From: a virus
IMG/VR virus record: IMGVR_UViG_3300031839_001235
Location: 1 to 33,514 of that record
DNA: 33,514 nucleotides
Direction: 5' to 3' (one strand)
Position numbers and translations under genes: made by a program. Shown piece by piece: positions 16,737 through 21,329 of this stretch (within the stretch, counting starts at the first letter, position 1; each line of letters starts with the position of its first letter). Under the pieces are notes generated by a model. The model worked only from the letters and a program-made list of their open reading frames with translations, was not told the origin of the DNA and ran no database searches.

Positions 16737-17993
16737 TTAGATCTTAATGATCTCACCAAACTGCTCGCAACCATCAAACTGCGGATCAGTGAAGTTAGTC
16801 AGCCAGAATACTGGGTAGTCTGGGACTGAAAACTTCTCACCGTAGTAAGCATTCGGGCCAACGTCAGCCAGTCCATCAGTGAAGTAGACCAGAGCATTGG
16901 GGTTCACATCGTTGTGCTCACACCAGTTGAATGGTGGGTTGAACGCAGTGCCGCCGCCGCCGTGCATCTTCAGGACGATGTCATCGCCCCGTTCGAACTC
17001 GTCAACGTGGTTGACTGTGAAGTCGCAATAGATCACATACACCTTAGTCGGCTTGATGTCAGCCACGATGTCATCGATGTGATGACTGATGATTGATAGT
17101 TCGTGATCATCCAGTGAGCAAGAGGTGTCAACTGCGACAACCAGCTCGCCCGTTGGCTCGGTTATATTCGACGGCAACCTCAGCCCCCGAGACAGTAGCC
17201 TCCGGTTAGGTCTGGCGTAGGTCTGATCAGTGACCACGCTATCGCGCAGAGCATCTCTCAGAATCTCATTCCAAGGTTGAGAGTCACCCTTCAGCGAATC
17301 GATCATGTCCCTAGCCTGACCAAGCGAACCCTGACCAGCTTTGCGCTCAGCCTGAGCGGCTTGGTTGACTGCTGCCGCAACAGACCGTTGCTCCTCAGCT
17401 TTGCCAGACTCGTCGAGCAGCTCGCCATCGTCATCAACCCCGTCTCTAACCTCACCCCAAGGCACGCCAGAGTCAGATTGTGAGGTTGCTCCAGAGTCAG
17501 ATTGTGAGCTGTCGTCATCGCCATCTTGGTCAGATGAAGGGTCAGATGAAGGGTCAGCCCCGTCAACAGCCTTGCTACCCTCTCCGTCCTCGTCCTGCTG
17601 AGGCTTGCTGATGTCAGAGTAGATCCGCTCAGCCGCCCAATCTCGATACTTGCGATTGAACAGTCCGTCATCTGGAAGGGTGAACCCAGCCTTAATCAGA
17701 CCTTCGTTGATCGCGTAATCACAGGCTTGATTCCAAAGCTTATGATCACGGCCATCTTTCCTCAGGTGGTGCCCGTATCCGATGTGAGCGCATTCATGAG
17801 CGAGCACACCGGCAACCTCAGGCACGGTCAGGCTATCTACCCAAGCAGGGTTGAAGAAAATACTCTTGCCATCAGTGGCCATTGTCGGCGTGTTGGCAGC
17901 ATCCTCGACAAGCTGCAATCGATAGAGCAAGCAGGCGTAGAAGGGGTGATCTGCAATCATGCGCTGTCGCGCCTTAGCTATTTGCACGTTCAT
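16737..17993 (-). CDS. Metallopeptidase-like/VWA protein (DUF2201 type)
   Basis: 418 residues. N-terminal domain with a zincin motif HECAH at 66-70, following VAGVLA; a low-complexity acidic D/S linker about 131-200; then a von Willebrand A-like domain with an intact metal site: D289-T-S291-C-S293, T349 in HGGGGTAF and D373 in FTDG. The order fits DUF2201 proteins, which are encoded beside MoxR AAA+ ATPases. The VWA domain would bind substrate or the ATPase through a metal ion; the peptidase half may be active or only structural. Start: CTAGGAG, in which the previous gene's stop TAG is embedded, lies upstream. The region looks more GC-rich than the structural genes. Confidence 0.85.
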   Translation of the reverse strand: MNVQIAKARQRMIADHPFYACLLYRLQLVEDAANTPTMATDGKSIFFNPAWVDSLTVPEVAGVLAHECAHIGYGHHLRKDGRDHKLWNQACDYAINEGLIKAGFTLPDDGLFNRKYRDWAAERIYSDISKPQQDEDGEGSKAVDGADPSSDPSSDQDGDDDSSQSDSGATSQSDSGVPWGEVRDGVDDDGELLDESGKAEEQRSVAAAVNQAAQAERKAGQGSLGQARDMIDSLKGDSQPWNEILRDALRDSVVTDQTYARPNRRLLSRGLRLPSNITEPTGELVVAVDTSCSLDDHELSIISHHIDDIVADIKPTKVYVIYCDFTVNHVDEFERGDDIVLKMHGGGGTAFNPPFNWCEHNDVNPNALVYFTDGLADVGPNAYYGEKFSVPDYPVFWLTNFTDPQFDGCEQFGEIIKI

Positions 17994-18002
17994 AGATATC
18001 TC

Positions 18003-18878
18003 CTAGTCAAAAAATCCAGTCAGTTTAGAAGCGATGTCACGGGCAGTGTCTGCCGCATTCTTACGTTCAGCAGGGTCATCGCGCAGCTTCTGGGGATCAA
18101 GGTCTCTAAGTCTTAAGATCAGATCATTCGATACCGCCGTCAATGCGGGGTCACCTGTCAGGTTGATGTTGGGCAGAGTCTCGGCCAACTCCTCAATAGC
18201 AGTGACCGTTGAGTCGCTGAACTTGGAGGCTCGCTGTTGACCCTCACCCTTGGTGCCGTGTCGATCAAGCCCATCGATAAAGCTGTTGAGCACCTTGCTT
18301 ACTCGGTCATGGACAGACTTCATACCAGCTTCGATACGGTCATTGACATCACGCTCAACCTCGGCGCGTATGGCCTTGACCCGATCATTGGGTAGATTGA
18401 CGCGAATGTCGTCACCGCTGGGTAGCTGGCGTAGCAAGTAGCTGATTGAGTACTTACCGACAATCGCCTCGACCTCAGGGTAATCAGAGGCGTTGAACGC
18501 AGACCCGAGTCTGAGCTGGTCATCTCTGACAATGTCTGGCCATTCTCGCCGCAGCTCAAGCTTCAGCTCGTCAAGCTTGTCAGACTTGGCTCTAAGGTCG
18601 CGCTCGAAGTTGTCGAGGTTATCGACAGTAATCAGGTGAACCCCATCCTCCCAAGGCACGCACCATTTGCGGATGACCGAATTACCCACTTGGCCGATTA
18701 GCTTGTTGAGTTCCTTGACCACGGCAACCTTGGCGAGTCGCTTGCTGACGCGAATGAATCCATCGTCAGCATTCTTGTCGACAGTGACCTCGTCGCTGAT
18801 ACGCTTGTCGGTGACTGTGTTGTTCCACTTGGTGCAAGTAACCTTGACCAGTAACGCGTTGTTCTGGATCTTATCCAT
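18003..18878 (-). CDS. Middle protein of the MoxR-VWA module, 291 aa (possibly DUF3150-like)
   Basis: Between the ATPase and VWA genes, where phage modules of this type often carry a DUF3150 protein. Seen: an N-terminal region with KRLAKVAVVKELNKLIGQVG, WCVPWEDGVHLITVDNLDNF near 72-91, and long helical charged stretches (RDLRAKSDKLDELKLELRREW, later DRVKAIRAEVERDVNDRIEAGM) likely to form coiled coil. No catalytic motif is seen. DUF3150 assignment rests on size, context and the PW-x-x-G-x-x-L-pattern only. A bridging or substrate-adaptor role is inferred. Its start is preceded by an SD hairpin (18884-18896). Confidence 0.65.
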   Translation of the reverse strand: MDKIQNNALLVKVTCTKWNNTVTDKRISDEVTVDKNADDGFIRVSKRLAKVAVVKELNKLIGQVGNSVIRKWCVPWEDGVHLITVDNLDNFERDLRAKSDKLDELKLELRREWPDIVRDDQLRLGSAFNASDYPEVEAIVGKYSISYLLRQLPSGDDIRVNLPNDRVKAIRAEVERDVNDRIEAGMKSVHDRVSKVLNSFIDGLDRHGTKGEGQQRASKFSDSTVTAIEELAETLPNINLTGDPALTAVSNDLILRLRDLDPQKLRDDPAERKNAADTARDIASKLTGFFD

Positions 18879-18883
18879 TGTTA

Positions 18884-18896
18884 AATCTCCTAGATT
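18884..18896 (-). promoter_or_regulatory. SD hairpin AATCT-AGG-AGATT
   Basis: Arms AATCT and AGATT pair perfectly around AGG, so the Shine-Dalgarno sequence CUAGGAG is half looped and half paired. The stop codon TAG of the MoxR gene (18892-18890) is part of it, so a ribosome finishing MoxR would open the hairpin for the next gene. Confidence 0.55.
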
Positions 18897-19987
18897 GCGA
18901 CACGTTGAGTGTCAATTTTGAATTGAACGTAGGCTTCAGAGGCCTTCAGATCTTTATCACGATTGGTGGCGATGAGGAAAAATACCGCGAGCAACTCTTC
19001 ATCAATGCGCCGCAAATAACTAACAGCGTTATCGACATTTCGATTGTCGCAACGTTGAGCCAGTATCGTGGCGATGGCGTACTTGGTTGCCAGCTCTCGG
19101 TCATCAGGCACATTGGCTGAGTCAGGGTCTCGCAGGATATGGCCAGCATCTGGAAGGTTGCGGACAATCTGCAAGAATCCAACGAACTCAGCGGCAGCAC
19201 CCTTACCCACTGCACCCTCAATGGCTGCGTGTTCTAAAGATTTGGGTAAACCAGCTTGCAAAATGGCAGAGACAGACTCCCAACCGCGAGGTGTAGCAGC
19301 GGCAGTGAACCCCTTGGGTATGCCACCCTCTGGGTATTCGTGAAGCAGTCCAGCCTGATCGATTGAACCGTCACCCTTTAGAATTGGCTTGCCACGGTTA
19401 GCGATGAAGGCGATCACCTCAGGTGCATAGCCAGCCGATCCCGCGAAGTTGACCCACTCGTCAACGTCAGGCACCACGTTGAGCTGCACGCTAAATCGGG
19501 TCATGAGGGCAGCGTCCTGTCGGCCATGAACGCCGGCACCATCACATGATCGATTAGACGCGGCGATGATTCTCCAACCCTCAGGCAAAACGTAGTCGCC
19601 AAGCTGTCTGTCATTGATTAGCTGGTACAACGATGATTGGACTGACACAGACCCAAGAAGCAGCTCGTCGGTGAACAGGATGCCGTGCTCGCCGTCACGG
19701 TCAACACGCGGTAACCAGTCGGGCAATGCAAACGCAGTGCGTCCATCGACAAGGTCAGGGATGCCTCGGGTATCGACAGCATCAAGCTGGGACGCTCGAA
19801 CGTCGATGAGACCCCACTGATTGCCGGTCTGCTCAGAGAGAGACGCAACGATTGACTGCACAATGGATGATTTACCCACGCCGAACGCACCCCAGAGAAA
19901 AACGGGGCGTACCTTGTGAGGGATAAGCGACTCCACAATGGTGGCCGCTTGGTTGAGTGACACAGTCGCAATGTTTGAATACTGCAT
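18890..19987 (-). CDS. MoxR-family AAA+ ATPase
   Basis: 365 residues. Walker A GAFGVGKS at 33-40, Walker B GILFTDE with D107-E108, sensor 1 N145 in RIIAASNR, and R164 in ALMTRF as a possible arginine finger. MoxR ATPases form hexamers that remodel or activate partner proteins together with a VWA protein, which lies two genes downstream. Known relatives mature enzymes (for example metal insertion), but the phage target is unknown; similar marine-phage genes have been annotated as cobS. Its start follows a hammerhead ribozyme (20019-20071) and an SD hairpin (19993-20007), so this gene heads an mRNA segment made by RNA self-cleavage. Confidence 0.9.
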   Translation of the reverse strand: MQYSNIATVSLNQAATIVESLIPHKVRPVFLWGAFGVGKSSIVQSIVASLSEQTGNQWGLIDVRASQLDAVDTRGIPDLVDGRTAFALPDWLPRVDRDGEHGILFTDELLLGSVSVQSSLYQLINDRQLGDYVLPEGWRIIAASNRSCDGAGVHGRQDAALMTRFSVQLNVVPDVDEWVNFAGSAGYAPEVIAFIANRGKPILKGDGSIDQAGLLHEYPEGGIPKGFTAAATPRGWESVSAILQAGLPKSLEHAAIEGAVGKGAAAEFVGFLQIVRNLPDAGHILRDPDSANVPDDRELATKYAIATILAQRCDNRNVDNAVSYLRRIDEELLAVFFLIATNRDKDLKASEAYVQFKIDTQRVAI

Positions 19988-20007: not shown

Positions 20008-20018
20008 TGTGGTGGATT

Positions 20019-20071
20019 CCACAGACCCCGAAGGGGTTTCGGCTGGTATCCAATCAGCCTCATCAGTGTGG
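20019..20071 (-). ncRNA. Hammerhead ribozyme, type I (upstream of MoxR)
   Basis: On the minus strand all core parts are present in order: stem I CCACA (20071-20067), CUGAUGA (20066-20060), stem II GGCUG and CAGCC (20059-20055, 20045-20041) with a 9-base loop, GAAA (20040-20037), stem III A-CCCC and GGGG-U around UUC, C at position 17 (20024), then stem I UGUGG (20023-20019). The cleavage triplet is the canonical GUC; the cut falls between 20024 and 20023. The stop UGA of the 62-aa gene lies inside CUGAUGA, so cutting separates that cistron from MoxR. Confidence 0.93.
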
Positions 20072-20251
20072 GCGATGCTCTCGGCGCTTGAGTTCAGAAA
20101 AGCAGTAGAGGATTTCATCCTGATACTGTCCGGCCTTGGGGTTATCAGGCATTGCCGCCAGAGCCTGACGGCAGTCTTCGATGACGTACCTCAATGAATC
20201 GGTGCTGCGTTTCTTACATTCTCGGATGTAGTCGCTGTGCCAGTTGCTCAT
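20063..20251 (-). CDS. Small conserved phage protein, 62 aa
   Basis: Start at ATG 20251 with GAGGAGAG upstream; a longer frame to 20323 would overlap the 54-aa gene. The sequence (WHSDYIRECKKRSTDSLRYV, IEDCRQALAAMPDNPKAGQY, QDEILYCFSELKRRE) resembles a small helical protein seen in many phages, with three conserved-looking cysteines. Function unknown. Its stop codon is inside the core of the hammerhead ribozyme at 20019-20071. Confidence 0.75.
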   Translation of the reverse strand: MSNWHSDYIRECKKRSTDSLRYVIEDCRQALAAMPDNPKAGQYQDEILYCFSELKRREHRPH

Positions 20252-20262
20252 GATTTCTCTCC

Positions 20263-20427
20263 TCAGTGTAGATTTTTGATTAGGTATTGAATGCGGCGAG
20301 CTTCTTGCCAGAGTAACGCGCACTCATTGGACGTGTAGCGGGTTTGACCCGATAACTCTAACGCGACAATCTGCGGCGTTAGTTGGTTTAGTTGCTGGTT
20401 AAGTCTTAATTTGTCCATGTTGCTCAT
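20263..20427 (-). CDS. Small protein, 54 aa, unknown
   Basis: ATG at 20427 overlaps the previous stop (ATGA at 20424-20427), GAGGG lies about 7 bases before it, and the TGA at 20265-20263 precedes the next ribosome binding site. The product begins MSNMDKLRLNQQLNQLTPQI and ends EARRIQYLIKNLH; it reads as two helices. It exactly fills the gap between two coupled genes, which supports it. No family is recognised. Confidence 0.65.
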   Translation of the reverse strand: MSNMDKLRLNQQLNQLTPQIVALELSGQTRYTSNECALLWQEARRIQYLIKNLH

Positions 20428-20630
20428 GATTTCGCCCTCTCTACTCTCTCGAATGCTATCTCCAGCTCTCTGTTGAACACTGGATTGATTTCTCTCATCT
20501 CACGAAACAGGGACAGAATGAATCGCTCTTCACCCTTGATTTGATTAATGAAGTAAATGGCAACAGCGCCGCCCCCAAGGCAAACACCGAAACCGATAAG
20601 GCACAATTGAATGATCAGCTCATCTATCAT
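20424..20630 (-). CDS. Small single-pass membrane protein, 68 aa
   Basis: Residues 3-27 (DELIIQLCLIGFGVCLGGGAVAIYF) form one hydrophobic helix with a glycine cluster; the rest is a charged amphipathic tail (GEERFILSLFREMREINPVF, NRELEIAFERVERAKS). ATGA overlaps link it to genes on both sides. A membrane-anchored helper is likely; function unknown. Confidence 0.7.
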   Translation of the reverse strand: MIDELIIQLCLIGFGVCLGGGAVAIYFINQIKGEERFILSLFREMREINPVFNRELEIAFERVERAKS

Positions 20631-20782
20631 GACTGCACCTCATATGGTGATTGCTTGATCCACTTGTAAGGGACAGTGAACTCGCATTCGTGGCAGTAAA
20701 AGGCCAGCCCCTTTAAGACATTGCTATCGTCCAAGTCGCTCAGGTTATCGCTGAGGCAATGCTTGCAAACTATATAGTCCAT
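20627..20782 (-). CDS. Zinc-ribbon protein, 51 aa
   Basis: Start at ATG 20782 with CTAGGAG upstream; a frame open to 20848 would run back into the ribozyme. CKHC at 6-9 and CHEC at 32-35 make two zinc knuckles, and aromatic residues follow (FTVPYKWIKQSPYE). Such mini zinc ribbons often bind nucleic acid or RNA polymerase, but nothing here shows which. It is the first gene of the mRNA segment released by the ribozyme at 20804-20856. Confidence 0.75.
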   Translation of the reverse strand: MDYIVCKHCLSDNLSDLDDSNVLKGLAFYCHECEFTVPYKWIKQSPYEVQS

Positions 20783-20803
20783 CTTGATTCTCCTAGATTG
20801 GTT

Positions 20804-20856
20804 TCCTATACGCCTTGCGGCGTTTCGATCCGCACCACTGGATCTCATCAGTAGGA
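20804..20856 (-). ncRNA. Hammerhead ribozyme, type I (upstream of zinc-ribbon gene)
   Basis: Minus-strand order: stem I UCCUA (20856-20852), CUGAUGA (20851-20845), stem II GAUCC and GGAUC (20844-20840, 20831-20827) with an 8-base loop, GAAA (20826-20823), stem III A-CGCC and GGCG-U around a GCAA tetraloop, A at position 17 (20809), stem I UAGGA (20808-20804). All pairs are perfect. The triplet is GUA, an allowed but usually slower NUH site; the cut falls between 20809 and 20808. It lies just after the stop of the 70-aa gene. Confidence 0.92.
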
Positions 20857-20859
20857 TTC

Positions 20860-21072
20860 TTACACCCCGAGGATTTCGCTGGCGTACAGGCTTTCGTCCT
20901 CTTCCTTGATCTCGGCAACGATTTGCTTGAACACAGCGTACTGCTCTTGGGCCTCTCTAAGCCTCTCGATTAAAGCCTCGTCGCCTAGATAAGACTGGCT
21001 CAGTAGCTCACGTTGCGTTGCGTTGAAGGTGGCTCGGATAGCTTTAGCGGCAGTGATTTTGTGATTGATCAT
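20860..21072 (-). CDS. Small helical protein, 70 aa, unknown
   Basis: ATG at 21072 with CUAGGAG 8 bases upstream in a hairpin. The product (ITAAKAIRATFNATQRELLS, ALIERLREAQEQYAVFKQIV, AEIKEEDESLYASEILGV) is almost all helix with a heptad-like pattern, so a small coiled-coil protein is likely. First gene of the operon, between the type III and first type I ribozymes. Not recognised. Confidence 0.75.
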   Translation of the reverse strand: MINHKITAAKAIRATFNATQRELLSQSYLGDEALIERLREAQEQYAVFKQIVAEIKEEDESLYASEILGV

Positions 21073-21076
21073 GTTG

Positions 21077-21091
21077 ATATCTCCTAGATAT
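21077..21091 (-). promoter_or_regulatory. SD hairpin ATATCT-AGG-AGATAT, overlapping the ribozyme
   Basis: ATATCT and AGATAT pair perfectly around AGG, holding the CUAGGAG of the 70-aa gene. Four of its bases (21088-21091) are also stem III of the hammerhead at 21088-21142, so the ribozyme fold and this hairpin exclude each other. Confidence 0.6.
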
Positions 21092-21142
21092 GTTTCGACC
21101 TGCTGGGTCTCGTCAGTGCATCAGCATCAGATGCAGACATAT
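21088..21142 (-). ncRNA. Hammerhead ribozyme, type III (end of operon leader)
   Basis: Minus-strand order: stem III AUAUGU (21142-21137), C at position 17 (21136), stem I UGCAUC and GAUGCA (21135-21130, 21122-21117) with a 7-base loop, CUGACGA (21116-21110), stem II GACC and GGUC around CAGCA (21109-21097), GAA then stem III ACAUAU (21093-21088). All 16 pairs are perfect and the triplet is the canonical GUC; the cut falls between 21136 and 21135. Here stem III is open, a different topology from the other two. Cutting frees the upstream leader. Confidence 0.92.
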
Positions 21143-21323
21143 ATGAGCATTGAGTGACCGCCGCCCCGCCGACAATATCCTGTGCCGTTCAGTCCCCCTC
21201 AGCTCCGGTCTTACCGTCGACCACCTGCAGTACAGTGGCTCGCTTCACTGGGGAAGGGCTCTCGCCCCGCAGGATTCGCGTACTGTATGTCTGTCCAGTA
21301 CCGCTGGGCTCCTCGTCGCCCGT
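21136..21323 (-). ncRNA. Structured GC-rich leader RNA, probably released by the type III ribozyme
   Basis: Between the -10 box at 21335-21330 and the ribozyme cut. Minus-strand stems: GCG-G-TACTG with CAGTACGC (21304-21296 with 21285-21278, one bulge); an outer CCTGC/GCAGG (21273-21269 with 21228-21224) enclosing GGGC-GAGA-GCCC (21267-21256, a GNRA loop) and CAGTG/CACTG (21250-21246 with 21237-21233), that is, a three-way junction; GGTC/GACC (21220-21217 area with 21210-21207); and GACCG/CGGTC enclosing the rest. No coding frame fits. The 5' end near 21323 is an estimate from the -10 box. Family unknown. Confidence 0.6.
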
Positions 21324-21329
21324 GAGCGC

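Follow-up and report, generated by a model that had tools for sequence, protein, structure and literature searches.

Three hammerhead ribozymes of two topologies in a MoxR operon of a marine-type phage, and a possible division of its transcript into a leader and three mRNAs

Organization of the operon

The window (by which we mean the whole stretch of DNA analyzed here, a virus record of 33,514 bases) encodes a terminase that is 54-56% identical to those of the Pelagibacter phages HTVC027P and HTVC023P; since the genomes of these phages are ~58-61 kb in length, the record is probably a fragment. The phage that carries the operon is of marine type. The operon comprises co-oriented, closely spaced genes (Table 1), and from its type III hammerhead to its last type I hammerhead the order is p70, the middle ribozyme, p51, p68, p54 and p62. 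An earlier reading of this DNA, made from the sequence only, had placed a five-gene segment between the two type I copies; this was wrong, as the list of open reading frames contains four small genes there. The small proteins gave no match to any Pfam or PHROGs family, a search of the viral contig collection for relatives of p51 found none, and the DNA of the operon had no match among 50,697 phage records. A strict promoter scan detected no site on either strand; a TATAAT sequence is present at 21335-21330. Start codons with Shine-Dalgarno sites follow the first, middle and last ribozymes after 15, 21 and 31 nt, respectively.

Table 1. Features of the operon, in window coordinates.
Feature	Position	Strand	Details and basis
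Leader	21143..21325	minus	~160-183 nt; conserved; upstream of first ribozyme
Hammerhead, type III	21142-21088	minus	predicted cut 21136/21135; descriptor, Rfam Hammerhead_3 below gathering, relatives
70-aa protein (p70), segment 1	20860..21072	minus	ORF; in L002 and L006, absent from L003/L004
Hammerhead, type I, middle	20856-20804	minus	predicted cut 20809/20808; descriptor
51-aa protein (p51)	20627..20782	minus	ORF; two CxxC pairs
68-aa protein (p68)	20424..20630	minus	ORF; N-terminal half hydrophobic; absent from relatives
54-aa protein (p54)	20263..20427	minus	ORF; in L002-L005, absent from L006
62-aa protein (p62)	20063..20251	minus	ORF, sequence; relatives exist
Hammerhead, type I, last	20071-20019	minus	predicted cut 20024/20023; descriptor; alignment in five relatives
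Predicted 5'-terminal hairpin UGUGG(AAUCCR)CCACA of the MoxR mRNA after cutting	20008..20023	minus	fold
MoxR-like AAA ATPase, first gene of segment 3	18890..19987	minus	phrog_1297, E 3e-65; AAA_5
291-aa protein between MoxR and VWA genes	18003..18878	minus	ORF; co-occurs with MoxR/VWA elsewhere
DUF2201 metallopeptidase/VWA-like protein	16737..17993	minus	PF13203, PF09967

Shine-Dalgarno sites at 21091-21077, 20007-19993 and 18896-18884 share the sequence CTAGGAG, and in each of them palindromic flanks loop out the AGG (ATATCT[AGG]AGATAT, ATTACT[AGG]AGTAAT and AATCT[AGG]AGATT). Outside the operon, 22 start sites were checked and none has a palindrome of this kind; the third (18896-18884) is not kept in the related contig L003. 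CsrA-like sites in these hairpins were considered as a candidate reading.

Three hammerhead motifs on the minus strand

The sequence-only reading had located three complete hammerhead cores on the minus strand at the positions listed in Table 1, and these are borne out by a descriptor match at each. The cores carry CUGANGA, GAAA, the A-U pair that closes stem III, and H17, and the stems are 4-6 bp in length. All three stems are present in every copy; stem III is the open one in the type III motif, and stem I in both type I motifs. The cut sites that had been claimed fit H17 as read from the sequence, falling between C21136 and U21135, between A20809 and U20808, and between C20024 and U20023. 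When a strict type I/III descriptor was applied to the whole window it returned exactly these three matches and none elsewhere, while 300 first-order Markov shuffles yielded 13 matches, corresponding to ~0.04 per shuffled window. With a scored descriptor the three sites reached 39, 39 and 41 at a threshold of 24, and 100 shuffles produced two matches.

The Rfam covariance models, which had been suggested as a check, bear out the motifs in part: there was no match in the window at gathering thresholds, but relaxed thresholds gave a Hammerhead_3 match at 21087-21143 (41.1 bits, E 1e-6; gathering score 48.5). Under the same relaxed conditions RAGATH-1-hammerhead (RF03152, the model of which includes an upstream hairpin) matched both type I copies weakly (26.2 and 22.4 bits, E 0.28 and 1.9), below its gathering score of 56.3, and Hammerhead_1 matched the middle ribozyme with 18.8 bits. 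A gathering threshold is a database cut-off and no chemical feature; in 14 sampled loci, most of which hold at least two hammerheads by descriptor, only two ribozymes pass it. From the descriptor results and the weak Rfam scores together, we regard the presence of three hammerheads in the window as confirmed by sequence, and less so by Rfam. The motif at 21142-21088 shares its core, stems and topology with the type III family (RF00008) but scores under gathering and has a short stem II loop, CAGCA. The type I copies share the core, an open stem I and closed stems II and III with the type I family (RF00163) and RAGATH-1, whereas they score far under gathering and show no element-specific features beyond the core.

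Each ribozyme had been said to occupy a gap between genes. This does not hold for the last one, whose core UGA (20065-20063) also serves as the stop codon that ends the 62-aa gene; this ribozyme is therefore not simply intergenic. As a separate observation, loop II of the type III motif (CAGCA) is complementary to the loop I side (UGCUG) within 21136-21088. This pairing could form a pseudoknot of the sort published for hammerheads, and it is lost in the related contig L006.

Conservation and gene turnover in relatives

Relatives were found by a MoxR protein search of viral contigs, which gave six contigs that are 97-100% identical in MoxR and more distant ones at 39-48%; the descriptor found no hammerhead in the latter. 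Close relatives whose contigs extend far enough conserve both outer ribozymes, the type III and the final type I copy. The latter escapes the descriptor in L002-L004 because its core there reads CTGACGA and its stem II contains an insertion of 2 nt. The type III alignment contains four pairs changed on both sides, with 98.4% of cells paired, whereas a slid-partner control has no pair with both sides changed; as only four distinct sequences are represented, these compensatory changes are supportive, not strong alone. The stem II insertion, together with the published lack of activity of hammerhead-like RNAs that depart from the core at several positions (PMC3088659), would favor the idea that some copies, most of all the middle one or the bulged forms of relatives, have decayed and lost activity. 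We think this very improbable, as all three cores in the window fit the consensus and their stems are full.

The genes between the outer ribozymes vary among relatives while both ribozymes persist. Between them lie p70, p54 and p62 in L002, p70 and p62 in L006, and p54 and p62 in L003 and L004. The middle ribozyme is absent from all relatives examined and was seen only in the window, and comparison of gene content indicates that it goes with the p51-p68 insert. Such turnover raises the question of whether the ribozymes are mainly portable ends of gene cassettes, or products of spread and duplication, in which case cutting would gain the phage little. The middle ribozyme, occurring only beside two genes that are missing from relatives, speaks for this, as does the likeness of type I members among the matches listed in our survey (below), which is 0.73 within arrays and 0.58 between arrays and points to growth by duplication. 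However, the outer two ribozymes keep their pairing and core despite the gene turnover, and the three copies in the window share little beyond the core, which makes them unlike recent duplicates. We therefore consider this explanation unlikely.

Upstream of the first ribozyme, the leader (21325-21143) is conserved in relatives with a mean column identity of 88%, and the promoter-side sequence just upstream of it differs. This pattern fits a scheme in which the leader is the main product, with the type III ribozyme making the exact 3' end of an independent small RNA. The leader has no Rfam match, its folding energy is ordinary (z 0.41), and its covariation is unconvincing, with one pair changed on both sides and three pairs with broken cells; on these grounds a structured-RNA label is not justified yet. 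A small RNA as the main product is rather doubtful for the same reasons, and it would leave the two later ribozymes unexplained. A search with leader 17-mers returned seven unrelated matches besides the true relatives.

A model for processing of the transcript

We propose, with a probability of roughly three in four, that the three hammerheads act on a single nascent minus-strand phage transcript and divide it into a leader and three mRNAs. In a type III hammerhead the cut is near the 5' side, so that stems I and II remain on the downstream RNA; in type I it is near the 3' side, and stems II and III remain on the upstream RNA. The type III ribozyme would end the leader and start the mRNA of the first gene, and each type I ribozyme would end the mRNA upstream of itself. 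Four products are predicted: a free leader RNA, followed by mRNAs that contain one gene, four genes and the MoxR/VWA genes. The leader would carry a 2',3'-cyclic phosphate at its 3' end, position 21136, the three mRNAs would start with a 5'-OH, and every piece except the last would end in a cyclic phosphate. Because the type III body stays downstream and the type I body upstream, the p70 piece would be bordered on either side by ribozyme hairpins, and the piece with the small genes would retain a ribozyme body at the 3' end. The MoxR piece would start, at nucleotide 1, with the hairpin UGUGG(AAUCCR)CCACA; this hairpin reuses the 3' strand of stem I, and the base that varies in relatives lies in its loop. 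From this anatomy we infer self-cleavage and common transcription, with separate decay and translation of the pieces as the likely purpose.

The same region can be read as a set of regulated ribozymes, in which competing folds would decide both cutting and the openness of the ribosome site. For example, a further CCACA lies downstream of the last ribozyme and could pair with UGUGG, and the first ribozyme has bases of its stem III in common with the Shine-Dalgarno hairpin AUAUCU[AGG]AGAUAU. The minimum free energy fold of the middle ribozyme is the hammerhead fold, and those of the isolated first and last ribozymes differ from it; for the last, the minimum free energy structure of its 63 nt is a competing fold, in keeping with regulation, and the 5-bp hairpin and the MoxR Shine-Dalgarno hairpin persist in relatives. 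The Shine-Dalgarno hairpin of the first gene, however, is absent in L003/L004, where a different gene follows. Moreover, hammerheads usually cut co-transcriptionally, ahead of downstream competitors, and control by competing folds is on balance improbable. Cutting of the nascent transcript into a leader and three mRNAs is thus the reading that we retain. The sequence-only reading had already proposed an operon with three hammerheads of two topologies, its putative transcript from about 21323 being cut into a leader, a one-gene, a multi-gene and a MoxR/VWA segment, which would differ in stability and dose; the motifs stand and the segmentation follows from the anatomy, but the gene count and the novelty do not survive.

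Strings of ribozymes in phage operons were in fact described in 2011. Perreault et al. (PMC3088659) report multiple prophage hammerheads flanking genes or short gene blocks, and propose the processing of long phage RNAs into gene- or operon-length mRNAs. Triple and tandem prophage sets, in three tandem arrangements, cleave in vitro, and the Agrobacterium tumefaciens set also cleaves in E. coli (PMC3088659). The earlier statement that no described operon is organized in this way therefore fails, since that paper contains both the clusters and the same mRNA-processing proposal. Like these clusters, of which the triple set around ardA in A. tumefaciens is an example, the window has multiple same-strand hammerheads that border single genes or blocks of genes. 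It differs in its genes (a MoxR/VWA operon with small proteins) and in the conserved leader before the first ribozyme. PMC3088659 also describes HHphage of haloviruses HF1/HF2, a variant of the hammerhead that lies in an early region, 13 nt ahead of a phage start codon; it is described as a structural variant that may respond to salt, whereas the copies in the window are canonical. A 2023 paper repeats the statement that bacterial ribozymes are enriched near other ribozymes and Mu-like phage genes (PMC10085705).

Hammerhead arrays in other viruses

Our survey combined four motif scans of viral contigs with the relatives, amounting to at least 431 sequences (window included) and 3.84 Mb, grouped by blastn matches of at least 150 bp. 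As the loci were chosen by motif and only the matches listed were counted, the counts are not frequencies in nature. Among the matches listed, 257 unrelated viral groups have a hammerhead and 89 of them have two to eleven on one strand; hammerheads on both strands occur in only one locus. The earlier premise that hammerheads occur singly in phages and bacteria is contradicted by these 89 groups, as it is by the prophage clusters in PMC3088659.

Topologies are not mixed freely in these arrays. Types I and II share 0 of 73 arrays among the matches listed (permutation mean 49.6, minimum 37). Type III comes first in 14 of 17 mixed arrays listed (expected 7.2, P = 5e-4). This was seen first in the discovery set (12/13) and holds in only 2/4 of the later loci listed, so we treat it as a tendency for which independent testing is required; as an absolute rule it is rejected, with L305, L399 and L428 as exceptions. 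The arrangement in the window, type III followed only by type I, recurs among the matches listed in L273, L281, L296, L357 and L374, and L062 has the array III-III-I-I-I, giving at least six other groups in which type I follows type III. The resemblance of type I members within one array, given above, indicates that arrays grow by duplication; duplication alone may account for the separation of types I and II, but it does not account for the leading position of type III.

Positions relative to genes were also compared among the matches listed. The median distance to a gene end is 1 nt for type I and -2 nt for type II, and both types lie 20-24 nt before a start codon. A gene end is found at -150 to +20 nt for 81% of type II and 60% of type I copies, compared with 31% of random points, and for 44% of array-opening type III copies (n = 18; crude gene calls). 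These values fit an opening type III in the leader with the others at gene ends, within the limits of small numbers and crude gene calls. The coincidence of the core UGA with the stop codon of the upstream gene was considered as a general rule and rejected, the effect being weak (24/193 type I copies compared with 18/295 control CTGATGA sequences).

We put forward, tentatively and with less than even confidence, a rule in which type III tends to open an array, later members are all type I or all type II, and topology decides which product keeps the ribozyme body. The last element rests on the type III body staying on the downstream RNA, by which topology would decide which product retains the protecting structure. 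This topology rule, drawn from motif order, may be the new and unreported part of the present analysis, and it is the part worth following: if it proved true in an unbiased survey, an unexplained observation of 2011 would become testable. Phages may commonly use multi-ribozyme operons to shape the ends of their mRNAs independently of host nucleases, and most such operons escape standard annotation.

In bacterial genomes the type III pattern gave no match; a second pattern recovered 20 arrays from bacterial genome contigs, each homogeneous in type. In the bacterial sample L437-L516 (genome_contigs), selected with the CTGATGAGTCC...GGACGAAAC motif, many contigs are from Patescibacteria, and the multi-ribozyme arrays are mostly of type III only. 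In L062 (3548-237) the type III and type I copies share the stem sequences ACACCC/GGGTGT and CCCG/CGGG, and look like circular permutations of one ribozyme that arose via duplication. Finally, the contigs L085, L133, L171, L173, L253, L259, L277, L308 and L392 were selected solely for a hammerhead motif; they also encode relatives of the window's MoxR-like protein and, in many cases, of its VWA protein. In L308 the MoxR match is preceded, at a distance of 25 nt, by a type III motif, and the MoxR and VWA genes of L085 are surrounded by type II copies.
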